This document shows positions 10,232 through 25,854 of a stretch of DNA of 64,000 nucleotides, one piece after another. Origin of the DNA: Allocoprobacillus halotolerans (GTDB lineage Bacteria > Bacillota_I > Bacilli_A > Erysipelotrichales > Coprobacillaceae); NCBI RefSeq assembly GCF_024399475.1, contig NZ_CP101620.1:620001-684000 (forward strand), in the 5' to 3' direction. The notes below the pieces were generated by a model. The model worked only from the letters and a program-made list of their open reading frames with translations. It did no database searches and was not told the DNA's origin. The translations under genes and the position numbers were made by a program. Each line of letters starts with the position of its first letter. Within the stretch, counting starts at the first letter, position 1.

Positions 10232-10692
10232 TTATCTATATTTTTTAATTAGCTTAGCTGGTACTCCAGCATATAAACAATAACTTTCTGAAATATTTTC
10301 TGTAACTACTGAACCTGCTGCGATTACAACAAATTTGCCTGTTATTTTAACATCTCCAACTATAGTTGAATTTGCACATATCCAAACATCATCTCCAATA
10401 TATGTATTCATTAAAACATGTTTCTTTTTTTATTTATAATCCACTCATTAATATCATACCCCGATGATAATATTGTAACATTAGAAGATAGAGTAACTCT
10501 ATCACCTATTGTAATCGTACTTCCAGTTCTCCCCAACAATTTACAACCATCATTCAATTTTACATCTTTTCCAATAGTAATCGTGTTTGGATCTTTTACA
10601 GTAACTTTGCCAAAAACTCTCAAATTTGATCCACAAGAAAAAAATTTATTCATAAAAATTCTATTTTTAATAAATTTAATAACTTTTTTCAT
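10232..10692 (-). CDS. Hexapeptide-repeat acetyltransferase, frameshifted near 10425-10431
   Basis: Left-handed beta-helix acyltransferase of the LbH/WbbJ type. The first part has hexapeptide turns such as ITIGKDVKLNDGCKL and ITIGDRVTLSSNVTI. After a T7 run the protein continues in another frame with MNTYIGDDVWICANSTIVGD, VIAAGSVVTENI and AGVPAKLIKKYR, the normal end of maltose/galactoside-type acetyltransferases. One added base restores about 153 residues. It is the last gene of the polysaccharide operon and probably O-acetylates a sugar of the repeat unit. Confidence 0.75.
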
Positions 10693-10724
10693 TAATTATT
10701 TCATACTCCTTTACTAATAAATAA

Positions 10725-12243
10725 TTAAAATTTAAACTTCTTTAATGTTTCTTTAAATTTACTTTTAAATATTTTTAACTCCATATTATTTCTACAAAAT
10801 AAAATATTTATAATAATTGTTAATAATACAGTAAGTATACCTTTAAAAATGAAATCAACAAAATTATTCACTTTAAAGCATAATAAAATACTATCATTAA
10901 TTAAAAGAACAAGAAAAAATATAATTATATACTTTACATTTAAAATTAAAATTTTATTAAATGGAACTTTAAATTGATCCTTACATAAATAATAAATACC
11001 AAAAGGGAAATTACAAACTATTCTTGATATTAATGTTCCTAGGATAATTCCAAGTAATCCAAAATATTTAACAAATATTAGTGATAATAATACATTAATA
11101 ATAGCACCCAAAAAATATACACTTTTTATTTTTTAAAAACATCCGTGGTGTTTATAAATCCTGTTTGAGCATAAATTAATATATTTAGATATAAATCAAA
11201 TATTAAAACATATAAAATAATTTTTGATAAAAGATATTTTTTCCCAATCCATATAATTATAAAATCCTGCATTAACAATGCTACTCCAATAGACAATACT
11301 GATCCTATTAAATGATATAAAAATAAAACATTTTTATATAACAATACTTTATCTTTAGCATTAATTTTAGTTGTATGCATTCCTATACTACTTTCCATTG
11401 AATTATACAAATTCTTTGCTAATGATCTAATATTTTGAATAATCATCATGTAATTACTATAGTATCCTACCATCACGGTTCCTACAAATTTACTTATTAA
11501 AAAATTATCAGTCATTTCTATTAATGTGCTAGATATTCTTGTAATAGAAACATCTTTTACTTTATTGTAAATGTACACCTTTTTATCTTGATCTATTGTC
11601 TTTGAACTAATTAAAACCCATTTATACTCTTTTCTAAAATAAATCACTATATATATATTTGTAATAAGAGTTCCTAATAACATAAAAATAACATATATTA
11701 GATAACTCCCACCAAAAAACATTGCAACTATCTGCAACAGGGTCGAAACAACATAACCTAAAAGATTTCCCTTTTGAATTATTCTAATTTTTTGATCTGC
11801 ACGAATAACTGAGTTGTAAGGTCCAACTTGATAGGTTAATATTTTCGATAAAACAAAAAACATGTAATATACCATAAAAGATTTAAAATCTAAAATATCA
11901 GGAACAAAAAAAGTAATAAGAGGTATAATCATAATTGATGCGATAATAAGAATTAATATAATTATCCTAAATATTTTTTTGAATAATTAAAAACTGATCT
12001 AATTTCTTCTTTCTTATCCTGCGAAATTTCTTTAATCAAACAATATACTATTGCATCCCCAAGACCTAAATTGCTCAATGCCAATAGCCCAATTATACTA
12101 TTTAAAACAGCTGTAATCCCTAAAAAATAATCGCCTATTGTTTTAATAAATAATGTTCTAGATATTAGTCCAAATAAAAGGATAACTAAATCTGAAAACA
12201 AAAAAGTACTAAAATTTTTTAATATGTGTTTTTTTGAATTCAT
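10725..12243 (-). CDS. wzx: Wzx-type polysaccharide flippase, two frameshifts
   Basis: Three collinear pieces rebuild one MATE/MVF-superfamily flippase of about 505 residues. The N-terminus (SDLVILLFGLISRTLFIKTI, then LLALSNLGLGDAIVY) is typical of Firmicutes Wzx. The middle holds most membrane segments and the C-terminal third ends in a Lys-rich tail. Breaks lie at a T7 run (11974-11980) and a T6 run (11129-11134); one base added at each restores the frame. It would flip undecaprenyl-pyrophosphate-linked repeat units across the membrane. Start ATG 12243 overlaps the end of the preceding glycosyltransferase. Confidence 0.82.
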
Positions 12244-13270
12244 ACCATCTTCCTTGTCTTGAATGTAATGATAAAAATGCAAGAAAATATGCAATATCTA
12301 CCATTTTATATTTTAAAACATATAAGTACAGTTTATATTTCAAAGATAGACTTGGGGATATTGTTACTTTATGTATATCAAACATATCACAAAGCTTTTT
12401 TATATCTTTTCTTTTAAAGAAATAATGAATATTATTTTGTTTATTCGCATAATAATATTTCATTATATTAATTAAATATAAAAGTCTATATATATAAAAG
12501 GCTCTCTTTAAACACTCTTCTGTCAAATTTATTTTTTTCAAGAATTGTCAGCATATTTACTATCTTATTAACATAATTTGGATCAAATTTTCGAGTAGCT
12601 GATTGTTCAAACAACCTATAACCATATAATTCATCAGAAATGATTACCATTTTATTTATATAATAGGACAATTGATTAAGAAATAACAAATCTTCAGACA
12701 ACGAAAGGTCTCTATCAAAATAAATATGATTTTTTACAATAATTTCCTTCTTAAATATTTTTCCCCATACACACATACAAAAGGGATATTGGATATTATC
12801 TTTTAAAGTAGGAGTGAACATAAGTTCTCGATAATAATCTAATGTTTTAGCATCGTATGTCTGCATAGCAGGACCCTTATACAAAGATTTTTTTAATGTT
12901 TTATTAAATGTATAATATAAACAACCCGTAATATCAGAATTACATGTTTTTTGTACTTTCATTAATTTTTCTATTGTATTTTTTCTAAGCAATCATCAGA
13001 ATCTAAAAAAAACAGAAAATCACCTGTAGCATTTTGTATACCTATATTCCTTGCAATTGATACACCCTCATTCTTTTTATGTATCACTTTTATTAATTTA
13101 TAATTTTGTGTATATTCATCTAAAAAATTTTGAATATCGTATTCAGAACCATCATCTACAACTATTATTTCAATATTCGAATATGATTGATTGAGCGAAG
13201 AATCGATTGCTTCTTTAATATATATTTTTTTACCATTATATACCGGTATTATTATACTAACTTTTTCCAT
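12209..13270 (-). CDS. Family 2 glycosyltransferase, two frameshifts
   Basis: GT-A glycosyltransferase. It begins MEKVSIIIPVYNG, with VVDDGSEYD nucleotide-binding and LDSDDCLE metal-binding motifs. It continues after a shift at T6 (12979-12984) with a region containing SEDLLFLNQL, the ED motif of family 2 enzymes, and ends after a second shift at T7 (12532-12538). Restored length is about 350 residues. Its ATG at 13270 overlaps the previous stop (TAATG). It would add one sugar of the repeat unit; donor and linkage cannot be inferred. Confidence 0.8.
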
Positions 13271-14342
13271 TATTTCGTTAATTCCTTTATAAAATTTAAA
13301 TTTTCTAAAACTGTATCTGAATCCCATTTTCTCGAAAGTGGACAAAAAGCATTTATTCCATCATCATACATAACTACAAATTTTTTATATAATTTACTTT
13401 CATTTGCATAATTTTTTTGTGCAATCGCTTGCCTAATTTTACCTTCATCACCTGGTAGAAATTTATAGTGTTTTAATATAATCCCATACTGTGCAGTTAA
13501 ATCCTCCTCATACGGAAAAATATGATGTGATCCTATATTAAATCTTATATCAGTTTGATAAAATAAAGGGACCTTACATTGTAATGCATTTTCATCTTTA
13601 AATACCCTATTGATAAATCCTCCTGTAATCAGTTGTCTATCTTTATCATATATGTAATAATCACTATCCGTATCATAAAACACATATTCCTCCAAGAACT
13701 TTGACTTATCTAAATTACTATCTCCAAGGTTATTGTCAGGATACATTTCAAGCATTAATCCTTTAACAGAAAATATGTTTTTTTTAAATAATTTCTCCGT
13801 ATATTCATTTAAATCCATTTTTTTCAATTCTGGGTACCAAATAAACTCATCTGCATCAACCACTAAATACCATTGATTATCTCCTACATCAGATATCATC
13901 CTATTACACCAAGCACATTTTTTTGTGAATTATATTTATCCGTCGTTTGATACAATACTACATCATTTTGCTGCATCAAGAAATCTAAAGTTCCATCTGT
14001 TGAATTATTATCACAAATCAAAAAAAGCTTTATTCCTAAATTTCTATAATGGTCAAGAAACCATTTAATTCTTGTGATTTCATTTTTTAATGCACACACC
14101 ACTATTACTTGATGTTCCTCAATATTACTGACATTCTTAAGGATTTTAATATTTGAGTCAAAAAAAGAATTAATAGTTTCATAAATTAATTCATTATTTG
14201 AGTTAGCTATTAACAGTTTTGCTTTATGTAATAGTTCAGGAAATTCAGAGCTTATAGATGTAAAGCTTTTTAATTTTTGTAATTCTTTCTTTTTATTCTT
14301 GTAACCAAGTATATAACCTAAATAATACTTGATTGTACACAT
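13270..14342 (-). CDS. Glycosyltransferase family 2-like (DUF23/GT92-like), one frameshift
   Basis: An approximately 358-residue protein broken at T7 (13918-13924). The first part has VVCALKNEITRIKWFLDHY and LICDNNSTDGTLDFL, the start typical of the Glyco_tranf_2_4/GT92 group. With one base added it runs KKCAWCNRMISDVGDNQWYL into VVDADEFIWYP, containing the DxD-type metal site. A histidine-rich segment near GSHHIFPYEED follows. GGAG precedes ATG 14342. It is an internal gene of the polysaccharide operon, immediately after the polymerase. Confidence 0.75.
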
Positions 14343-14477
14343 TGTTTTGACTCCAAAAAATTTTGTATATCTATCATTAATCTTTCTAATAATGTTAATT
14401 TTTTTTATTGAATTTTTTCATAATAAACCTCGTATTTAAATTAATATCGCTTTAAAGTAAAATAACATAAAATAAGT

Positions 14478-15725
14478 TTACTGTTTACTGAGAATATCCA
14501 TGTTGATAATAGCCATAAACATCATTGGCAATATCATATAACTAAAAAATGGTTCCTTAATCTCAATAATAAACATTATTGCTAGTATAAAGAAATAAAA
14601 GATTTTATTTTTTAATTTATTCTCTATTATTGGTAATAAATAAAGCTGCAAGAAACTTATATAATAAGCAATACTACCAAATAATCCTAAAGCAAAGAAC
14701 TTTTGCCAATACCCAGAATCATTTTGAAATTTTGTACCCAATTGTGATATACCTTTAGTAACAGAGGTTCCAAATAAAGTTTCTAATGTCAAAGCTGGTT
14801 TATCCATTTTACTAAGTACATCAAAAGTTTGCGATCCCTCTCCTAAATTAAACAATCCATAAAACAATTCTAAAGACCTATTAACAATTCTTCCTATCAA
14901 CTCTGGTTTAAATAAATATACTATTAAAAACAAAAAAATCGTTATTATAATAATTTTAGGAATCACTTTACGCATATCATATAAAATATTATCTCTTTTT
15001 TCAGTAATCAGCCAAAAAATTAATAACGCTACTGCGCAGTAAAATCCTGTTCTCCCACTTATTGCTTCAGCTATCATTATTATCAAGTATTTAACAAAAA
15101 AGTTAGATACCGTTATTTTTCCTTTTAGCATCATAAATAGTAATAATACTTGACTTGAAAATAAAACAATAGATCCAGCAGCCCCTACAACACCTATCCC
15201 AATGCCCTTCACACTAGCTGAAATATAAAATAAATATTCCTTATCATAAGAATAATATAATGATAATAAAGACTTTACTGGGTCTAAAAATAATGAAGAA
15301 ATAACGATAATACTTTGTGCTATTGCAACAGAACTAATAGTACGTTCAAAATTTTCACTATTTTTAAAAACCATAATAATAAATATTGGCATAACAAATA
15401 AATATAACATACTAACAATTAATTCTTTTGAAAACATATAAGACGATGATGAATTATAAACATAAAATATTTCTCTATACAATAACCCAGATGCCCAAAA
15501 AAAGCCTAAAGCAACATAAATTATATAATGTTTAATACCTATCTTATTTAAAATCGAACGCACTTCACACAAATGTAAAAATAAATATATAATTACAATA
15601 ACAAAAATATATTTTGTCAAATCAATATTAAATATTCTTATTTTAAAAAGTAAAATAAAAAAAACTATCCAAAGTATTATTTGTTTAATAATTTTAATAT
15701 CTATTTTAGTATTTAATAATTTCAT
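14478..15725 (-). CDS. wzy: Wzy-type polysaccharide polymerase
   Basis: A 415-residue integral membrane protein with about ten to eleven hydrophobic segments and a large extracytoplasmic loop (about residues 270-340, around GSQTFDVLSKMDKPALTLET), the topology of O-antigen/capsule polymerases. Sequence conservation in this family is too low for a motif-based call. The assignment rests on topology and position between glycosyltransferase genes and a Wzx flippase. It would link repeat units on the outer face of the membrane. This is one of the few unbroken genes in the operon. Confidence 0.75.
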   Translation of the reverse strand: MKLLNTKIDIKIIKQIILWIVFFILLFKIRIFNIDLTKYIFVIVIIYLFLHLCEVRSILNKIGIKHYIIYVALGFFWASGLLYREIFYVYNSSSSYMFSKELIVSMLYLFVMPIFIIMVFKNSENFERTISSVAIAQSIIVISSLFLDPVKSLLSLYYSYDKEYLFYISASVKGIGIGVVGAAGSIVLFSSQVLLLFMMLKGKITVSNFFVKYLIIMIAEAISGRTGFYCAVALLIFWLITEKRDNILYDMRKVIPKIIIITIFLFLIVYLFKPELIGRIVNRSLELFYGLFNLGEGSQTFDVLSKMDKPALTLETLFGTSVTKGISQLGTKFQNDSGYWQKFFALGLFGSIAYYISFLQLYLLPIIENKLKNKIFYFFILAIMFIIEIKEPFFSYMILPMMFMAIINMDILSKQ

Positions 15726-15728
15726 CTT

Positions 15729-16681
15729 TTATCCCCAACTGTCATTTTTATTTTTTCCAATTGCTGCTTTAAAATACCAAGTAGCTCTATTATACAATGC
15801 TCTAATACCACCCTTTTTATAATTTTTTAATACTCCTTTTAAATGGGATTTTATATAAGTTTCTCTGTTTAATTCTCCTATATTGTAAGGTGATTGCTTA
15901 TAACATTTATACCATTCATCAGCACATTTAATATATGTATATCGCCAAGGTTTTCCTCCTGTTGCATAATGAATAATAATTGCGTTATCAACTAATTCTT
16001 TATTACTCTTATAAGATGTATTATACAATTTATTTACTTTGTCTATAGGAAATGATTTTTTTCTACTCCTAATAATTTATTAGCAATACAATTATACTCA
16101 ATTGGCAAGAAAACCATTTTATCTTTAAACAATAAGTTAAATGTTTGTTGGTCCATACTGCCTCTATCTCCTAACGATTTTCTTGTTTTCATCAATAAAT
16201 TTGACATGTTTTTTTCTCTCATTAATTTTGCATTAAACAACATAACACCAGCATTTATTAATCTTCTATCATCAAAAACCATATCTAGCGAAGGAACTCC
16301 CCCGATATAATTGTCTCCTAAATTAATAAGATATAATTTTGTTAAATCACCACGCACATATATATCACCATCGAGGTATATCAATTTATCATATTTCTTT
16401 ATATAGTCACATATATTAAATTTTAATAAACATGCAATTGGTATGTGACTAAGTTGTTTTATATCTTTATACATTTCTAAAGAAACATTAATCACTTCTA
16501 TTTTTACGCTTTCTTTTTCTACTAATTTTAATCTTTTCTCATCTTCTTTATCACATTCTGCCATAACAACAAAGATATGGTATTTTGTATCTTTATTTTT
16601 ATTCTGTATTAAGGAGTATATTGCTACTCCTGTTTGCATTATAAAATTTTTATCTGCAATAAACACTATTGGTATAATCAT
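15729..16681 (-). CDS. Family 8 glycosyltransferase, one frameshift
   Basis: LgtC-like GT8 enzyme. The N-terminus has IVFIADKNFIMQTGVAIYSL, the metal-binding DxD is in KLIYLDGDIYVRGDL, and the acceptor-side segment INAGVMLFN is conserved. At a T7 run (16056-16062) the frame breaks. With one base added it continues GVEKKSFPIDKVNKLYN into IIIHYATGGKPWRY, the GT8 C-terminal motif. Restored length is about 317 residues. Retaining galactosyl- or glucosyltransfer is typical of the family; the substrate here is unknown. Confidence 0.85.
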
Positions 16682-17686
16682 CTATTTTTTCCTCCACTCA
16701 ATATTATGTTTTATGTTTTTTCTTTTTACCCATATTTTATACATTAATTTTGTGTTAAATGTGCATAATATAGATAATAATTTTATTTTTAAATTATTTT
16801 TTGAAAATAAAGTATTTTTAAGATAAAAAAATTTATTATTTTCTAACTTTAATTTCAATTGATTATTAATTAATTTATCAGAACGTGAACCTAAAAGTCT
16901 CATTCTTTCAGTTAGAATATTGTATGAAGTAATTCCAGTCAAAATTTTATTTTTTTAGAAAAAAATCATACTGCTCTAATCTATTAATAATAGCACCTTC
17001 TATTAATTTTCCTTTTAAATTATCATCATGCATGATACTATCACTTCTATTTGATTGATAATAATATAAAGGTAAATCTACAGTTATTATTTTTTTGCAT
17101 TCCACAGTACCCTATATATAGTTGCATTATCTTCACTTAGCCTATTATTTGGGAATAGTATATCTTCAAACAATTTTTTTCTGTATAATTTAGCTTGGGA
17201 AACACCTGAAGATGATCCAAATCCGCCAGAAAAACTTTTATATAAGTAAGATTCATTATCATATATTTCCTTTTTATAAGTTTTATTGTATTCTATTTTT
17301 ATTTGATTTTCATTTTTAAAAGCAAAAATATCAGAAGTAACAACATCCGCATCATTATTTTCTAATTCTTTAAGAAGTATCTCAATAAATCTATTATTAA
17401 TCATATCGTCACTATCTAAAAAAGTTATAATATTGCTCTTCGATTCTTTCAATAAAGTGTTTCTTGCAGTCGATAGATCAGGCTTGTTTTGTTCAATGAT
17501 TCGTATTCTTGGATCTATTTTCTCCCACTTTTTAATAATTTCATAAGTATTATCATTGGAAGGCTGCCAAACTAATAATATTTCCAAATTTCGATAACTT
17601 TGACTTAATACTGATTTTAAACATCTATCAATATATTTTTCAACTTTATATACTGGTATTAATACTGAAATTAATTGTTTTTCCAT
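16682..17686 (-). CDS. Family 2 glycosyltransferase, two frameshifts
   Basis: It starts MEKQLISVLIPVYKVEKYI, with the DxD region FLDSDDMINNRFIE and the ED motif RLSEDNATIYR. The frame breaks at T7 (17090-17096). The bridging sequence IITVDLPLYYYQSNRSDSIM is readable after adding one base. A second break at T7 (16950-16956) leads into the tail LTGITSYNILTERMRLLG. Restored length is about 335 residues. A promoter-like sequence lies upstream (17729-17756), so this gene may begin a sub-transcript of the operon. Confidence 0.82.
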
Positions 17687-17994
17687 TATTCCACACCTTT
17701 CTTATTGATTATAAATTTTCAATATCTATTTATATTGTATTCAGGTTGTTGTCTAACTCTTTTGTTCATACCAAACACTTTTAAATATCTCAACATTACC
17801 AGTGCTAGATACTATCCCTAATATTTGTATTATTCATTTTTACTTTTAACTTCATATATTTATACTGGTTTAATAAGAATACTGAATTAAATTTCTGAAA
17901 ATCATTAATCTAGTTAATGTTAAAATATTGTTACAAAATTTTCGTAATATGCAATATTTATAAATTAAATTCTTTGCAGTATCATTAATAAATA
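17687..17994 (-). promoter_or_regulatory. Intergenic gap with a possible internal promoter
   Basis: This 308-base AT-rich stretch has no open frame with homology that I recognise. On the minus strand TTAGAC (17751-17756) and TATAAA (17729-17734) are 16 bp apart, about 40 bases before the next glycosyltransferase start. It is the only large gap inside the polysaccharide operon. Confidence 0.4.
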
Positions 17995-19047
17995 TCATTT
18001 AGATACTTTTTTACTTTTTAAAATAGAATTATATATATTTTTTAATTCACCCATATATTCATTTATATTTTCTATTTTTCTTGCCTTATTTAATGCATTT
18101 ATATGCTTTTCGTTATAATATTCTTGATTATTCAGTAGTTTTTCTAATTCGGTTATATAATCATCATCAGTCAAACAAATTTTACCTACCTCATTATCTA
18201 CTATATTAACTAAGCCTCCAACAGGAGTCGATAAAACCGGTTTACCTAAAGCAAGAGACTCAATAGCCATTAAACCAAATCCTTCCCATTGAGAGGTTAT
18301 ACACATAATCTTAGAATTGTTTATAAAATCAAATCTATTTTTTGAAAACCTTTAAGATAAACATTATTCTTTAAATCATGCTCAATAATATAATTTTCAC
18401 ATACGCCTCTTAATTCACCATCACCTACAACTACTACTTTTATAGTCGGATATATTTTTTTAAATTTGAAATAATGTTTAGAAATCTTAATGGATTTTTT
18501 GATTGGGTTAATCTTCCTAAAAAATAATATCAAAATCATTTTCCTTTTCTATTTTTTCAGGTTTTATTTGCGTCAAGTCAACAGGATTAGAAATAACCTT
18601 GTAATTTCTAATCTTATTGTTATATTTATATTCATCAAAAATACTTGAAGATACTCCAAGAACTATATCAAAATATTTTAAAGAGTATTTATAAGCTAAA
18701 GATTTAATATTTCTACTCTGAATCCATAAAGGATTATGATGAAGATGTGATATAATTGGAATCTTCTTTGTAACCAACGCCGCTAAAATACTCGCAGTAA
18801 AATCATGGCAGTGTATAACATCCGGATTTAAATTTGAAATTGCTTTCTTTAATGTTAAATAATTCAGTTTATCTACTAAATAATAATTAATATCATTCTC
18901 TTTCAAAATTTCTTCAATTGGTCCTTCAATAGCTAAGTAAATCATATTGTAATTGATATTATTTTTTAATTTATTTATGATTGTTATAACTACATTTTCT
19001 GCTCCAGAATATGAATTAGTATTTAGGATATGTACCACATTAATCAT
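17995..19047 (-). CDS. Family 4 glycosyltransferase, three frameshifts
   Basis: GT-B enzyme. The N-terminal domain begins MINVVHILNTNSYSGAENVV and contains NPDVIHCHDFTAS. The C-terminal domain has VVVVGDGELRG and the family 4 signature SQWEGFGLMAIESLALGKPV. Breaks lie at A6 (18519-18524), T7 (18455-18461) and T6 (18338-18343); adding one base at each gives a continuous protein of about 350 residues through LGRLTQSKNPLRFLN and KGFQKNRFDFINN. Its start overlaps the stop of the next upstream glycosyltransferase by 8 bases. Confidence 0.83.
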
Positions 19048-20199
19048 GAAAAATATCTCCTTTTAAATACATTTTTTTCATTTTTTCACTAATTTGTTTA
19101 ACACTATATTTTTTTGACTCAATAATATTTAATTTACTAAATTTATCTTTAATTTCTTCATCAATACTTATAATTACATCTACAAAATTCATATATCCAT
19201 TAGGATTACATAATATTGAATTTGTTCCCTGAGTTATCAGATCAATATTTCCTCTAATTCTACTTGCTATACAAGGTAATCCACATGCCATTGCTTCCAT
19301 TAAAGCAACTGATAGCCCTTCTCTCTTTGAAGGAAAAACAAAGATATCACATGACTTCATAATCTTAATCACATCACTTCTATACCCTAAAAGATGCAAT
19401 CTATTTTCTACATGTAATTCTTTAGCAAGTTGTTCATGTTGTTCTTTTAATGGACCTCTTCCACAAATAACATAATGTACATTACTTGGTAACTCAGGTA
19501 ATGATTGAATAATCACTTTATGATTCTTATTATCATTGAGTTCCCCAACCGAAAGGAGTAATGTTGAATCACTTGGTATATTGAGTTCTTTGCATAATTC
19601 TTCTTTATTACCTTGAATAGAACTAATCTTATCTATATTAATCCCTACTCCAGGAACGTATTCTACCGTTCCATTTTTTCTTAATTTAAAATTATTTGCT
19701 GCTGCATAGTCTTCTTTATTAATAGTAATAAGTGTATCAGTATACTTTGCACCATATCTTTCAATATTTCTAAATAAAAATTCTTTAAAGGATTATTACC
19801 TTTAAAGAAATGAAAACCATGTGCCGTATAAATCATTCTACATTTATTGAATATCTCACTATGTTTGAATGCAATTCTTGTTATTAAACTTGAAATAGGT
19901 GTATGTGTATGAACAAGATCATATTGTCTTTCATTCATTAATTTTTTCATTTGTTTGTATGATTTGATATGATTACCAATTTTAAACATACTTCTTTCAA
20001 AATCCACTTGATACATATGAACATTTAATTCATTTAACGTATCTTTAAGTAAAGTGATTTTTTCATCAGACCATACAGAATAATCATTAAAATTACTTGC
20101 TACATCTACTTCATAGCCAAGTTCTATTAGAATATTGATATTATTCATATTAAACTGCCCTATCATTGATGGAACAGTTGCTGTCATCAAAGCTCTCAT
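19040..20199 (-). CDS. Family 4 glycosyltransferase, one frameshift
   Basis: GT-B enzyme beginning [20 protein letters not shown], with DLVHTHTPISSLITR and YTAHGFHFFKGNNPLKN, the EpsD/PglA-type N-terminal domain. At an A5 run (19776-19780) the frame changes. With one base added it continues FLFRNIERYGAKYTDTLITI into LLSVGELNDNKNHKVIIQSL, VICGRGPLKEQ and the donor-binding FPSKREGLSVALMEAMACGL. Restored length is about 387 residues. As in PglA systems it lies next to the PglC/PglD-like genes and may add the second sugar. Confidence 0.84.
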
Positions 20200-20915
20200 T
20201 GGTCTAGCCTCCTTAATGGCATTCCTACATATTTCCCAGGTCTCTCTATATGTTTAATAATTGTTGTTCCTGCACCAACAATAACATCATCATATATATT
20301 GATATTATTGATAACTGAACTTCCTATTCCTACCCATGTTCTCTTTCCTATATGTACGCCTCCTGCTATGTGTACTCCAGGTGAAACATGAACACAATCT
20401 TCTACAATACAATCATGATCTACACTTGCTGAAGTATTGATAATACAATTTTTTCCTACTTTTGTTCCAGCGTTAATAACTGCATTTGCTACAAATACAG
20501 TTCCTTCTCCAATTTCAACTGTTTCATCTATCACTGCTGATGGATGAATAAGAATTGGTAATTTGATATCTCTTTCTTTAAGTTTTTTAAACACTTTTTC
20601 TCTAATTTCATTATTTCCAATTGCTATAAAGAAGTCTGCATCTTTTTCTCTTTGATGTATTTCATCTATATCATCTGTCGTTCCAACAATAGAGTAAGTT
20701 CCTAATTGTCCTTTAGTAGAATCATCTAAGAAATAAATTTTTTTATATCCATTTTTCTTAGCTATATCCGCTACAACTTTTCCATGTCCGCCAGCACCAA
20801 TAATGTAAATTGTTTTATTATATCCATTCATAAATTTATCTAATTCTTCTGCCGTTAAATCATTTTTTAGAATATCTTTTAGAGAATGTCCTAATCCTTT
20901 TCTTCTAGTTACCAC
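20196..20915 (-). CDS. PglD/NeuD-like sugar-amine N-acetyltransferase
   Basis: A 239-residue protein with the nucleotide-sugar binding N-terminus [17 protein letters not shown] and a left-handed beta-helix. It keeps the PglD general-base histidine in SASVDHDC and the C-terminal [17 protein letters not shown]. PglD acetylates the 4-amino group of UDP-4-amino-trideoxy sugars using acetyl-CoA. The start appears to be GTG 20915, with GGAGGAG lying inside the end of the phosphoglycosyltransferase gene. This gives a 28-residue N-terminal extension before the usual PglD start, which may be an added segment. No good ribosome site precedes the internal ATG at 20831. Confidence 0.85.
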
Positions 20916-21510
20916 CTTTAAACTCCTCCATTGTTACAGAAGTATCACTTGATATTCCTTCTTTTTTAACTACTGATAATACAGTCATAAAGATAATTTT
21001 TATATCTAATAAAAAAGAATACTTTTGTGTGTATTCTACATCTAACTTAAATTTATCTTCCCAACTGATTGTATTTCTTCCGTTCACTTGTGCCCAACCA
21101 GTTAATCCTGGTCTTACATCATGCCTATGCTTTTGAAAATCATTATATAAAGGTAAATATTCTACTAATAAAGGTCTTGGTCCTACAATACTCATATCTC
21201 CTTTTAAGATATTAAATAATTCAGGTAATTCATCTAATGATGTTGAACGAAGCTTTTTACCAAATGAAGTTAATCTTATTTCATCAGGTAACAGATTACC
21301 TTCTTCATCTGTTTCACTTGTCATACTTCTAAACTTATACATCTTAAATATCTTTTCATCTTTTCCAGGTCTTTCTTGACAAAAGATTACTGGACTTCCA
21401 AGTTTTGTTCTTACAAGTATTGCAACTATGATATAGATTGGACTTAATACAATAATAGCTATTAATGAAAGAATAAAATCAAAAAATCTCTTAAAGAAAT
21501 GTCTATACAT
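20905..21510 (-). CDS. PglC-like initiating phosphoglycosyltransferase
   Basis: A 201-residue monotopic sugar transferase. One N-terminal hydrophobic re-entrant helix ([20 protein letters not shown]), the [20 protein letters not shown] segment, and the catalytic acid pair in [12 protein letters not shown] place it in the small PglC/WcaJ C-domain class. The signature [16 protein letters not shown] follows. It would transfer a sugar-1-phosphate to undecaprenyl phosphate, committing the first sugar. Grouping with PglD- and PglE-like genes suggests a diNAc-bacillosamine-type first sugar. Confidence 0.92.
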
Positions 21511-22736
21511 TATTTAAAACACTCCTTTATGATTTCAATGATCTTATCTTGTTCCTCTACTGTCATCTTGTTATCAGATGGCAAGCATAATCCTCTATCA
21601 AAGATATCCATTCCTACATCTAGTGATGATCCTGCTATATATGCATTTGTTTTAGCTCTACCATTTCCATTCTTTGTAATGAATGGATTCATTCTATAGA
21701 TAGGTTGCATATGCATTGGTTTCCATATTGGTCTACCTTCTGCATTATATTTAGCTAATGTTTCTAAGATTTCCGTTGGACACGACTTTCCTGGTTCGCT
21801 TATATAAAGTGCTTCTGTTTCACTTCTTACTTGTTTACACATAGCTTCTTTATCAATGATCATACATGATAACCAGAAATTTGGTTCTGAGTTATCTTCA
21901 TCATATGGATTCATTTGTATTGGTAAATCTTTAAGCCCATCTTTGTATCTTTCATAGATAGCTTTCTTTTGTGCGATATGTTCTTCTAAATATGGTAATT
22001 GTCCTCTAATAACTCCAGCAATCACATTAGACATCCTATAGTTATATCCTAATTCTTCATGTTGATACCATGGTGCATTTTCTCTTGATTGTGTTGACCA
22101 TTTTCTGACCTTTTTCGCTGCTTCTTCATCATCTGTTAAGAACATACCACCAGATGAACCAGTAATAATCTTATTTCCATTAAATGAAATGGCACTATAA
22201 TCTCCAAATGTTCCTGTTTGAATACCTTTATAAGTTGCCCCTAATGATTCTGCTGCATCTTCAATAAGAATAGCATTATGTTTATCACAAATAGCTTTAA
22301 TTTCATCAACCTTTGCTGGTGTTCCATAAAGATGAACAAGAACAACAACCTTCACTTCTGGGTATAATAAAAAAGCTTGTTCCAAAGCTTTCGGATCCAT
22401 ATTCCATGTATCATATTCAGTATCTACAAAAATAGGTACTCCACCTTCATAAACAACTGGATTCACTGTTGCATCAAATGTCATATCTGAACAAATAACC
22501 TTATCTCCTGGTTTCACTCCTGCTAGTTTTACTGAAAGATGAAGTGTTGAAGTTCCTGATGCAAGTGCAACTGCATATTTACACCCTACTTTTTCACAAA
22601 CTATTTTTTCAATTTCATCTATATTCTTACCTACTGTAGACATCCAATTTGTTTCATAAGCTTCTGTTATATATTTTAGTTCTTCACCATGCATTGTTGG
22701 TGATGATAACCAAACCTTATTTTCAAGCTTTTCCAT
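21510..22736 (-). CDS. PLP-dependent sugar aminotransferase (DegT/PglE-like)
   Basis: A 408-residue DegT/DnrJ/EryC1/StrS aminotransferase. PLP-binding lysine in [14 protein letters not shown], the preceding [10 protein letters not shown] and [13 protein letters not shown] motifs, and the substrate-binding segment [17 protein letters not shown] are all present. It would aminate the 4-keto group of a UDP-4-keto-6-deoxy sugar. Its stop overlaps the start of the PglC-like gene. The partner 4,6-dehydratase (PglF type) is not in the window. Confidence 0.9.
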
Positions 22737-22761
22737 ATTTTGACTCTCCTATACTATAGTT

Positions 22762-23345
22762 TTAAATATCATAAGCATATTCTTTATCATTGTTTACAAT
22801 TCTACCCTCAGATATATAACTATGTGGTTTAATTGTAATTCCTGATGAAATCACACATCGACTTTCTATTAATGTGTTTTCTCAATATGCACTTTCTTTC
22901 TTATCACTGAGTTAGAATGTATAGTTGCATAATCACTGATATAAGCTTCTCTATTTATAGTTGTATTACTTGATATAATGCACCCTTTAGATACATGACA
23001 GTTTGTTTCTAAGACAGCACATGGGAAAATAACACTTCCTTCTCCTATGTAACAATACTTTGATACACTTGCATGAGGATCTATAAGTATAGGTAACTTA
23101 TAGCCTAATAGTCTTGCTTTATCATAAAGCTTCTTTCTGACTTCATTGTTTCCAATAGCAACAAATACACTATCATACTCATTGACAAGATGCTCTAAGT
23201 CTTCTATCTTACCCACAACAATATCACTTAACTCATATCTTTCATCATCATCTAAGAAAGATATCTTATCAAAGATGTTCATTCTCTCTGCAATACTCAT
23301 GCAATACTGTCCATGACCACCAGCCCCAATGATTAACAAATTCAC
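22762..23345 (-). CDS. PglD-like paralogue lacking the catalytic histidine, one frameshift
   Basis: The first gene after the leader stem-loop. It starts at GTG 23345 behind GGGGAGGAG, with [20 protein letters not shown] matching the PglD nucleotide-binding domain. The beta-helix contains IGEGSVIFPCAVLE. Where the second paralogue has SVDHDC this one reads TTINREAY, so the general-base His appears replaced by Arg. A shift at T4 (22877-22880) breaks the last 40 codons; one base restores NTLIESRCVISSGITIKPHS. Total length is about 194 residues. It may be inactive, regulatory or use a different acceptor. Confidence 0.78.
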
Positions 23346-23370
23346 TTCTACTCCTCCCCTTAATAAAAAA

Positions 23371-23430
23371 GAATATAGTTCCCCCTACCCCATAAAAACA
23401 TATGTTTTTATGCATAGAAAAACTATATTC
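23371..23430 (-). promoter_or_regulatory. 60-nt leader stem-loop between loaP2 and the polysaccharide genes
   Basis: The outer arms GAATATAGTT and AACTATATTC pair perfectly. The inner palindrome CATAAAAACAT/ATGTTTTTATG also pairs. Between them a U-rich strand faces a G-rich strand (GGGGTAGGGGG), allowing several G-U pairs, so the whole element can fold as one long hairpin in the minus-strand RNA. LoaP proteins are known to need an RNA hairpin in the 5' leader of their target. This element has the right place and strand, but I cannot confirm a match to the described dfn motif. Confidence 0.6.
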
Positions 23431-23467
23431 AAACACTTCCATAATGGCAGATAACCACACGCATTAT

Positions 23468-23965
23468 TTATTTGTTTTGTTTAAACATTAATCCTGCTTT
23501 TATGTTTCTATTCAAGAATTGAATAGATAACAAGGCATACATATCTCTTTTATCTGTATCAATGATATAATCTTGAAATGGCATTAATGGACCTTTTGTC
23601 ACAATCGTTTTACCATTGTCTTTATATCCTTCACTCATTTTAAGTATTCCTTGTTTATTAAGTAATTGATACATAAACTCTATTTCAGTATCAGTTAATG
23701 CTGATACGTCTTTTTTCTTTAATTCTTTAATGATTCCATCTTTTTCTTCATTTAAATGATTTAATAGAATATCAAATTCCTCTTGATTCATTTGTGTTTC
23801 TACAAACAGATAACCAGGAAACATCACTTTCAATACAATTTCATCTTTTTTACGTATATATGTTTCCATTCTAGGTATAAATGCACGAACATTATTTTTT
23901 CTATTGAACATTGAACAGACTTTTTCTGTTTTCAATGTCTGACAAAATAAAACATAATAATTCAT
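23468..23965 (-). CDS. LoaP-like NusG paralogue 2
   Basis: A 165-residue NusG-family protein. The NGN domain starts MNYYVLFCQTLKTEKVCSMF and has the characteristic VKVMFPGYLFVETQM-type strand (here LKVMFPGYLFVET). The C-terminal KOW-like domain includes TKGPLMPFQDYIIDTD. LoaP proteins are specialised processive antitermination factors for long biosynthetic operons. The start at ATG 23965 overlaps the stop of the 71-aa gene by four bases (ATGA). It is the last gene before the leader hairpin and polysaccharide genes, so it probably acts on that operon. Confidence 0.85.
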   Translation of the reverse strand: MNYYVLFCQTLKTEKVCSMFNRKNNVRAFIPRMETYIRKKDEIVLKVMFPGYLFVETQMNQEEFDILLNHLNEEKDGIIKELKKKDVSALTDTEIEFMYQLLNKQGILKMSEGYKDNGKTIVTKGPLMPFQDYIIDTDKRDMYALLSIQFLNRNIKAGLMFKQNK

Positions 23966-24177
23966 GAATGATCTCTTTTCATAGACCAATGTTTTAAACA
24001 TTGAAATATGTCTTCATATGTTAAACATATATGTCCATTATCCATAAGCCATATATCATTTTCATGAGCTATTTCTTCTAATTGTTGAATAGCTAAATCT
24101 AACATATTTTCTATATGTTCTTGATTTTGTTTCATGAGTTCTTTTTTATCTTGCTTCATTGGTTCATGCATATCCAT
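23962..24177 (-). CDS. 71-aa protein between the two LoaP-like genes
   Basis: A small acidic and basic-mixed helical protein (MDMHEPMKQDKKELMKQNQE, then LAIQQLEEIAHENDIWLMDN). I do not recognise a family. It is coupled on both sides: its ATG overlaps the loaP1 stop (TAATG) and its stop overlaps the loaP2 start (ATGA). That tight coupling argues for co-production with the antiterminators. By analogy with Bacteroides UpxY-UpxZ pairs it could modulate LoaP, but there is no visible sequence similarity to UpxZ, which is also much longer. Confidence 0.65.
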   Translation of the reverse strand: MDMHEPMKQDKKELMKQNQEHIENMLDLAIQQLEEIAHENDIWLMDNGHICLTYEDIFQCLKHWSMKRDHS

Positions 24178-24692
24178 TAATAAACACTTCCTTTGCTGTT
24201 GATGACTTCTAAAGGCAATAACATATTCATACCTAATAAAGCATAATCAACTTTGGCAATACGTTTATGTCGGTTAATCTTCTTAATCTTTGACTCAAAC
24301 CCACAAAGAGGACCTTCCATAATCATTAAATCATCACCGTTATATTGACCTATGGAATGAGTAATAACTCCTTGATTATGAAAAAGCCAAGACATTATTT
24401 CTCCATCACTTTCACTTAAAGAAATAAACCTATCTTGTTCCAATAACTCTCCTAATCTTCCAACAGATTCAAATAACTTCATATACTTTGATTTGAATTC
24501 TTCCTCATTTAATAAACTTCTTATAAAGATATACCCAGGATACATATCCATTAATTGATAATCAGAAAACCCACTACATTTAAACCATTTTTCTACTTTA
24601 GGTATAAATGCATCAAGATCATCCTGTTTATTCAGTACTTCTAATAACTGCTTGTTATTTTGATGCTTTGAATAAAAAACATACCAATTCAT
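24177..24692 (-). CDS. LoaP-like NusG paralogue 1
   Basis: A 171-residue NusG-family protein. The NGN domain begins MNWYVFYSKHQNNKQLLEVL and has LMDMYPGYIFIRSLL. The KOW domain contains MIMEGPLCGFESKIKKINRH and RIAKVDYALLGMNMLLPLEV, close to the LoaP pattern. GGAGG lies 7 bases before ATG 24692, just outside the left recombination site, so the first gene transcribed after inversion would be this one. The order loaP1, 71-aa gene, loaP2 suggests a regulatory cassette rather than two independent genes. Confidence 0.88.
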   Translation of the reverse strand: MNWYVFYSKHQNNKQLLEVLNKQDDLDAFIPKVEKWFKCSGFSDYQLMDMYPGYIFIRSLLNEEEFKSKYMKLFESVGRLGELLEQDRFISLSESDGEIMSWLFHNQGVITHSIGQYNGDDLMIMEGPLCGFESKIKKINRHKRIAKVDYALLGMNMLLPLEVINSKGSVY

Positions 24693-24702
24693 ATTAACCT
24701 CC

Positions 24703-24735
24703 AAAAAAGTTCGTAGATTATCTTATTCTACGAAC
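24703..24735 (-). terminator. Left recombination site doubling as intrinsic terminator
   Basis: GTTCGTAGA (24709-24717) and TCTACGAAC (24727-24735) are perfect 9-bp inverted arms around the 9-bp spacer TTATCTTAT, the layout of a tyrosine-recombinase core site. On the minus strand the second arm is followed by TTTTTT (24703-24708), so the same DNA encodes an intrinsic terminator at the end of the recombinase gene. The recombinase stop codon (24723-24725) lies in the spacer. Confidence 0.85.
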
Positions 24736-25655
24736 TCTTTAGGTGTTTGTATTTTACTGATTTCTTTTTGTTTTTGTTCTAATGATGTATGTACATAAAA
24801 ATTTAAAGTAATAGAAACATTAGAATGTCCTAGTATTTCACTTAGTGTTTTGATTTCTACATTTTGCCTTACACATTCAGTAGCATAACTATGACGTAGA
24901 TCATGAAATGTGCAATAAAGATCATAGTCATGACAAAATTTACAGAAGTTTTTCTCTAGTCTTCTTGGTTCATATATTTTATGACTATTAGATAGGAGGT
25001 AATCTTCTTCATTATATATAAATATATATGTTTTAATATATTGAAATACAAATGATGGTATAGGTACTTCTCTATAACTTGTATGTGATTTGGGTGGGAG
25101 TATAATGACTTCTGTTTTTCTTTGATGTTCTTGAAAAGACTTTAATCTTGTTGCAGTGCCTTCTATATGAACAAGTTGATTTGTAAAATCAAGATGTTTC
25201 CATTTTAAAGCACATATTTCTCCTAGTCTGAGTCCACCATATAATGCCAATAATAAAGCAATAGAGAGTGGATTTGTATGTGTTTTCACATAGTCTATTA
25301 ATTTGTTTCTATCTTCATAAGAGAGTATGTTTTTTATTTTTGGTAGTGTTGTGATTTTGATTTGCTTAAAATTGATAGTTTGTAGATTATAATTCTCTAT
25401 TCCGTATTGATAAATAGAAGAAAGAATACATTTCATTGAATTTAATGTACTACTTGAAAGTTCTTCATTCTTTTTTCTTTCAAAGAATGTATAAATGCAT
25501 TTGTTTGTTATGTTGTTATTATTATATGACTGAAAATAGGGAAGGATATGATTGTTAATAATATTTTCATATTTTACAAATGTAGAATGCTTAATATAAA
25601 GTTTTCTTAGTGATAACCATTCTAAAGCAATATCATTGAATTTTGTTTCTTTCAT
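24723..25655 (-). CDS. Tyrosine site-specific recombinase (DNA invertase)
   Basis: A phage-integrase-family protein of about 310 residues. The N-terminal SAM-like core-binding domain begins ETKFNDIALEWLSLRKLYIK. The catalytic domain carries Arg in GGLRLGEICALKW, Lys near PPKSHTSYREV, the HxxR motif in HDLRHSYATE, His in LGHSNVSITL and the nucleophile Tyr in NFYVHTS. ATG 25655 is chosen because AGAGG precedes it and the predicted transcript starts just upstream; the frame is open to 25691. The last residues (EFVE) are encoded by the left recombination site. There is no integrated element nearby, so inversion rather than integration is the likely job. Confidence 0.9.
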   Translation of the reverse strand: MKETKFNDIALEWLSLRKLYIKHSTFVKYENIINNHILPYFQSYNNNNITNKCIYTFFERKKNEELSSSTLNSMKCILSSIYQYGIENYNLQTINFKQIKITTLPKIKNILSYEDRNKLIDYVKTHTNPLSIALLLALYGGLRLGEICALKWKHLDFTNQLVHIEGTATRLKSFQEHQRKTEVIILPPKSHTSYREVPIPSFVFQYIKTYIFIYNEEDYLLSNSHKIYEPRRLEKNFCKFCHDYDLYCTFHDLRHSYATECVRQNVEIKTLSEILGHSNVSITLNFYVHTSLEQKQKEISKIQTPKEFVE

Positions 25656-25680
25656 AATGTTAACCTCTTTTTCTATAATG

Positions 25681-25710
25681 TTTATAAACATTATTATAAG
25701 ATGATAACAA
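25681..25710 (-). promoter_or_regulatory. Promoter of the recombinase gene
   Basis: On the minus strand TTGTTA (25705-25710) and TATAAA (25681-25686) are separated by 18 bp. Transcription would start about 20 bases before the recombinase ribosome site. It lies inside the invertible segment and so always stays linked to the recombinase. Confidence 0.55.
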
Positions 25711-25755
25711 TTAAAAAAGATATCTGAGGAGTTAGATACTTTTTTTAATTAGAAG

Positions 25756-25784
25756 TTGATATTTTTTTCATATTATGTTATAAA
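25756..25784 (+). promoter_or_regulatory. Switch promoter, currently pointing right
   Basis: TTGATA (25756-25761), a 17-bp spacer, and TATAAA (25779-25784) form the best sigma-A-type promoter in the region. The predicted start is near 25791, inside the right recombination site. As assembled it reads out of the segment into the terminator at 25829. After inversion it would read left into loaP1. Confidence 0.75.
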
Positions 25785-25787
25785 TGA

Positions 25788-25818
25788 ATTCGAGGATTAA
25801 GATAATCTACGAACTTTT
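25788..25818. repeat. Right recombination site
   Basis: Outer arm TCTACGAAC (25806-25814) and spacer TTAAGATAA match the inverted left site. The inner arm ATTCGAGGA matches the left arm GTTCGTAGA at 6 of 9 positions. The imperfect arm gives a mismatched, weaker stem than the left site. Confidence 0.8.
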
Positions 25819-25828
25819 ATACAACCAG

Positions 25829-25854
25829 AATCAGCCATATGTGCTGATTTTTTT
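25829..25854 (+). terminator. Intrinsic terminator outside the right recombination site
   Basis: AATCAGC (25829-25835), loop CATATGT, GCTGATT (25843-25849) and a run of seven T. It would stop the switch promoter in the present orientation and back up recombinase termination in the other. Confidence 0.88.

Follow-up and report, generated by a model that had tools for sequence, protein, structure and literature searches.

The window, by which we mean the whole 64,000-nucleotide stretch of Allocoprobacillus halotolerans DNA that was analyzed, contains a segment of about 1.1 kb bounded by inverted repeats, beyond whose left end lie two genes for paralogs of NusG, a leader RNA and a polysaccharide operon. 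In ascending window coordinates, the features of this locus are:

10411–23345, minus strand: polysaccharide operon, with Pfam matches to PglD-type acetyltransferases, a DegT aminotransferase, a sugar transferase, glycosyltransferases and a flippase-like gene
23361–23470, minus strand: conserved leader RNA, with a small hairpin followed by a terminator hairpin (23430–23371) and a T run (23370–23365)
23468–24001, minus strand: loaP2, coding for a second LoaP-like NusG paralog of 177 aa (NCBIfam antiterm_LoaP, 102.2 bits)
24177–24692, minus strand: loaP1, coding for a LoaP-like NusG paralog of 171 aa (best match NCBIfam antiterm_LoaP, 101.8 bits; Pfam NusG)
24705–24725, no strand: left, loaP-proximal repeat arm (full recombinase site 24710–24734)
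24723–25655, minus strand: tyrosine recombinase of 310 aa counted from its ATG (Pfam Phage_integrase, PF00589, E 1.3e-24), within the candidate invertible segment
25756–25784, plus strand: outward promoter, TTGATA-17-TATAAA with a TG-extended −10, inside the right end, with equivalents at the same end in relatives
25798–25818, no strand: right, distal repeat arm (full recombinase site 25789–25813)
25827–25851, plus strand: intrinsic terminator just outside the distal site (as good in 0 of 40 shuffles)

The anatomy described by the initial annotation, namely a tyrosine recombinase gene between perfect 21-bp inverted repeats, an outward promoter within the segment, loaP1 just outside its left end and a terminator just beyond its right end, was recovered in full: a check of the window sequence found the two arms to be perfect and the recombinase reading frame intact, the ATG of loaP1 is at 24692 with its ribosome-binding sequence, GGAGG, directly outside and adjoining the left repeat, and the promoter, whose strength is judged from its sequence, and the terminator lie at the positions given above. 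The chance expectation for such a repeat pair in the surrounding 2.5 kb is about 5 × 10–5. The arms belong to a pair of 25-bp sites matching the pattern TTCGyAGA-N9-TCTryGAA, the left one reading TTCGTAGA-TTATCTTAT-TCTACGAA and the right one TTCGAGGA-TTAAGATAA-TCTACGAA; the two spacers agree in their central 7 bp, and the outer half-site of the right site is degenerate. The same genome has a second site at 2829230 (G000:C1:2829230; L129:7231), which is single and perfect and is preceded by an extended −10 promoter. Neither a partner repeat nor an adjacent loaP was found there, and this site, located beside a transposase-like gene, resembles what would remain of such a switch.

The recombinase retains the catalytic R, HxxR, H and Y motifs, and is a tyrosine-type enzyme encoded inside the segment rather than a serine invertase acting in trans. 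Its stop codon falls within the left repeat; hence, the protein would be left unchanged by inversion. Separately, a perfect 20-bp palindrome, ATAATGTTTATAAACATTAT (window 25675–25695), is situated just 5′ of the recombinase start, where it overlaps the presumed promoter of this gene and could be an operator for its autoregulation.

Homologous recombinases with repeats are found 5′ to tandem loaP1-loaP2 genes at dozens of loci from two bacterial families, i.e., the family of the window and one genus of a neighboring family, and the repeats share the same site motif. While a lack of conservation of the repeats around the recombinase in relatives had been named beforehand as the result that would count against a switch, we found the opposite, with repeats flanking the homologous recombinases at many loci. 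These come in two layouts: segments of approximately 1.1–1.4 kb that contain the recombinase, and short segments of approximately 130–340 bp with a promoter and no recombinase. In every tested locus with two sites (24/24), the paired sites have the same central 7 bp of spacer, and spacers of different loci agree at 3.1 of 7 positions, with 21 different spacers among them; agreement between paired sites was as high in 0 of 100,000 permutations. Such identity of paired spacers is what site-specific crossover requires. An exact-repeat search recovered no site pair in L056, L078, L079, L103, L106, L107 and L111; a motif scan then retrieved the pair in L103 and single sites, some of them cut by contig ends, in L056, L078, L079, L106, L107 and L111 (L057 was left out on account of its N runs). 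The search of genome contigs for related loci gave one weak match only. Related recombinases also occur away from loaP, at L080, L089, L091 and L092, with repeats of a further type (TTTAGTT...AACTAAA-like), which suggests additional elements of the self-inverting kind, including one within the genus to which the window belongs.

When orientation was compared among related species, the homologous segments were found in both orientations. For instance, in two genomes of a genus whose recombinase is 58% identical to that of the window (G074, locus L136, and G083, locus L137), the flanks are 94.6% and 95.7% identical and colinear, whereas the inner 1,144 bp are 96.2% identical and inverted, with the breakpoints coinciding with the 24-bp repeats. 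Likewise, opposite orientations are seen in L081 versus L105 and in L079 versus L081, at 70–74% identity. Inversion of such segments occurs in nature, a conclusion we hold to be nearly certain. In the window strain we predict it from the sequence of the locus, and the conserved repeats and the two orientations among homologous loci argue for the invertible promoter switch that had been proposed ahead of loaP.

The observed inversions also bear on the idea that the segment is an integrase-type mobile element, or a remnant of an integration, which came to lie beside loaP by chance and has no regulatory role. Such an origin would fit the placement of the recombinase in the broad phage integrase family and its distant phage and plasmid relatives, with identity up to about 33%; however, its position 5′ of loaP1 is conserved across two families, the spacers agree as pairs, the site pair is present just once in the window's genome, and the event seen is inversion, not insertion. 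Given the conserved position and the observed inversions we rejected this explanation, which we consider extremely improbable, in favor of a promoter inversion switch.

The outward promoter had been missed by a generic promoter scan because that scan demands a T at the final base of the −10 element. In the assembled orientation of the window it aims away from loaP and into the terminator at 25827–25851; computationally inverting the segment places it just 5′ of loaP1 with a short leader in between. The orientation as assembled is accordingly predicted from this layout to be OFF. By a simple score, 17 of 20 long segments have the stronger promoter at the 5′ end of the recombinase (Wilcoxon p=2 × 10–4), and the three long loci in which the expected end shows no clear advantage are L070, L105 and L136; about half of the loci have a terminator directly beyond the distal site. 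The promoter points toward loaP1, the predicted ON state, in L060, L116 and L136, and away from it in most other assemblies, including the window. Since loaP1 follows the recombinase closely in the same direction and no terminator separates the two, some read-through into loaP1 is likely in the OFF orientation.

This last arrangement, together with the assembled orientation being that of most assemblies, would also be compatible with a reversed logic, under which expression would be on in the assembled orientation: the promoter belonging to the recombinase itself would read through that gene into loaP1, and inversion would lower expression. However, the conserved extended −10 promoter sits at the opposite end and reads outward, the recombinase-less segments retain only this outward promoter, the terminators are placed where it would otherwise continue, and in L136, L060 and L116 it abuts loaP1; hence, we see the reversed logic as quite unlikely. 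Based on the anatomy of the locus, it is instead very likely that the orientation of the segment controls loaP and the operon, with the outward promoter as the driver of the ON state.

LoaP is the best NCBIfam match for both NusG paralogs (E ~1e-29), with scores under the curated cut-off of 125 bits, for which reason we term them LoaP-like. An identity as UpxY is not supported for either protein (38.6 and 32.8 bits versus the UpxY cut-off of 100), and no UpxZ was seen. Conserved 3′ of loaP2 is the leader RNA of approximately 90–110 nt. Its terminator hairpin has the form GAAyATAGTT...AACTATrTTC, often enclosing TTGGGGTAGGGG, and is followed by Ts; the small hairpin is also conserved, and its top is TGGTTTACCGC-like and not a UNCG tetraloop. 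Searching with a covariance model of the leader gave 41 matches, some of them weak, in 21 of 43 genomes from the family, and a single match in the window's genome. Pairing in the leader was above that of shuffled and slid controls in an alignment that had been fitted to the structure, and the terminator hairpin covaries. The leader region retrieved no significant match in Rfam. Because of its position after loaP2, the leader is a probable target of LoaP, which would act on its terminator, and it probably represents a new family of cis-regulatory RNAs to which LoaP-like proteins bind.

The roughly 14-kb polysaccharide operon of the initial annotation stands as far as its content is concerned, with Pfam identifying polysaccharide genes over the next 14 kb; its integrity is another matter, as several of the genes, including those for glycosyltransferases and the flippase, are broken by frameshifts (window 10725–20199). 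The frame break that we examined in detail sits at an A-run near 12980. Thus, the operon may be defective through decay, or the assembly may hold indel errors. Polysaccharide genes also follow loaP2 and the leader in relatives. In this regard, L136 and L137 are ~95% identical across switch, loaP genes and flanks, yet the operons open with different genes, a sugar transferase in one species and a DegT aminotransferase in the other, which suggests that polysaccharide cassettes are exchanged while the switch ahead of them stays in place.

The frame breaks raise the prospect of a frozen switch, i.e., an element that is real in the relatives but has lost inversion, or heads a dead operon, in the window strain. 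This would agree with the degenerate outer half-site TTCGAGGA and with other genomes of the same genus being without close relatives of loaP2. Set against these points are the perfection of the 21-bp repeats, the intact recombinase with all its catalytic motifs, the intact state of both LoaP genes and the leader, and the location of the examined frame break at an A-run, which an assembly error fits as well as decay does. We therefore regard a frozen switch as unlikely, and have strong confidence that the segment 24705–25818 is an invertible promoter element with a self-encoded recombinase, forming the first part of a two-step gate on a phase-variable surface polysaccharide.

Under this proposal, the self-encoded tyrosine recombinase would act on the two 25-bp sites, with their common crossover spacer, to invert the segment stochastically. 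In the OFF state, the outward promoter at the recombinase's 5′ end would fire into the terminator; in the ON state, the inverted promoter, now shortly 5′ of loaP1, would drive loaP1, loaP2, the leader RNA and the polysaccharide operon, and the terminator at 25827–25851 would end the recombinase transcript. The leader hairpin after loaP2 should halt most transcripts unless LoaP proteins, which are translated from that transcript too, join the polymerase and allow read-through of the leader terminator. The predicted outcome is a phase-variable surface polysaccharide gated by inversion and then by antitermination; both the promoter strength and this surface phenotype are what we infer from the gene content and sequence.

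A variation on this theme is seen in the genus g8 (G026 and G034), where related recombinases lie directly 5′ of the leader with no loaP (L063, L066, L067, L069, L071, L152 and L153). Three of the g8 loci have clear repeat pairs of a different site type, GAAGATT...AATCTTC. Going by promoter position, L063 and L066 of G026 are OFF and L067 is ON. This genome has a single loaP2-type match, which is on another contig, suggesting that its invertons are served by an antiterminator in trans. We somewhat favor the broader view that these loci represent an undescribed, widespread capsule module, which combines a self-inverting tyrosine-recombinase promoter cassette, locus-specific crossover spacers, paired LoaP1/LoaP2 and a leader RNA dedicated to it; one genus would have many such invertons feeding leader-bearing operons that lack a local loaP, presumably via a trans-acting antiterminator, and inversion and antitermination would jointly choose the surface polysaccharide.

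If so, predictions follow for phage sensitivity, immune recognition and colonization. The system would also provide a compact, self-contained flip module with spacers varying by locus, and a large collection of natural LoaP-like proteins and the RNAs presumed to be their targets, on which processive antitermination could be studied. Bacillus-like Firmicutes are reported in one study to have a median of zero invertons per genome (PMC11892184); were the organism to belong to them, as the initial annotation assumed, this would be an unexpected concentration of invertons. The annotation had further held the coupling of LoaP to promoter inversion to be undescribed, and in the open-access literature we found no report linking LoaP to an invertible promoter or phase variation other than a preprint on Eggerthella lenta; as the search covered open-access texts, the novelty of the combination is provisional. 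In E. lenta, megabase inversions move capsule clusters relative to loaP (PMC13174815, preprint). Like the module described here, this ties capsule expression to loaP through inversion, but it uses 16-bp repeats with no adjacent recombinase and moves whole clusters instead of a promoter cassette.

Individual parts of the module have counterparts in other known systems. The Salmonella Hin invertase gene likewise lies with the promoter within its own invertible segment (cited in PMC5903667), but it codes for a serine recombinase that controls flagellin rather than antiterminators or polysaccharide. The cps1 locus of Akkermansia muciniphila similarly shows capsule phase variation under an invertible element (PMC13343947), although that text, as searched, mentions neither a recombinase nor an antiterminator. 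At the dfn and mln operons of Bacillus velezensis, the leader on which LoaP acts likewise has a small hairpin and a terminator (PMC12691694); this parallels the LoaP-type NusG paralog and the two-hairpin leader that precede a long operon in the window, but those are antibiotic operons, the hairpin is of the UNCG type, and recombination goes unmentioned in that text. In capsule loci of Bacteroides xylanisolvens and other Bacteroidales, a short inverton at upxY has a tyrosine invertase next to it (PMC12118408). These share the tyrosine-type invertase, palindromic repeats and an antiterminator heading capsule operons, and resemble our short layout; however, the invertase is outside the invertible segment, the antiterminator is UpxY, not LoaP, and the sites are different. 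Finally, in the capsule loci of Bacteroides fragilis, invertible promoters are followed by upxY and upxZ under the global invertase Mpi (PMC12632263, PMC5903667). Here too an invertible promoter precedes a NusG-paralog antiterminator gene heading a polysaccharide operon, with the same two-step logic; but in B. fragilis many loci are switched in trans by one serine invertase, and UpxZ is an inhibitor of other loci, whereas the module described here has a tyrosine recombinase inside most segments, locus-specific spacers and paired LoaP-like antiterminators. As judged from its sequence, the module shares the logic of the Bacteroides capsule switch and not its parts, giving that logic a counterpart built of different components in another lineage.
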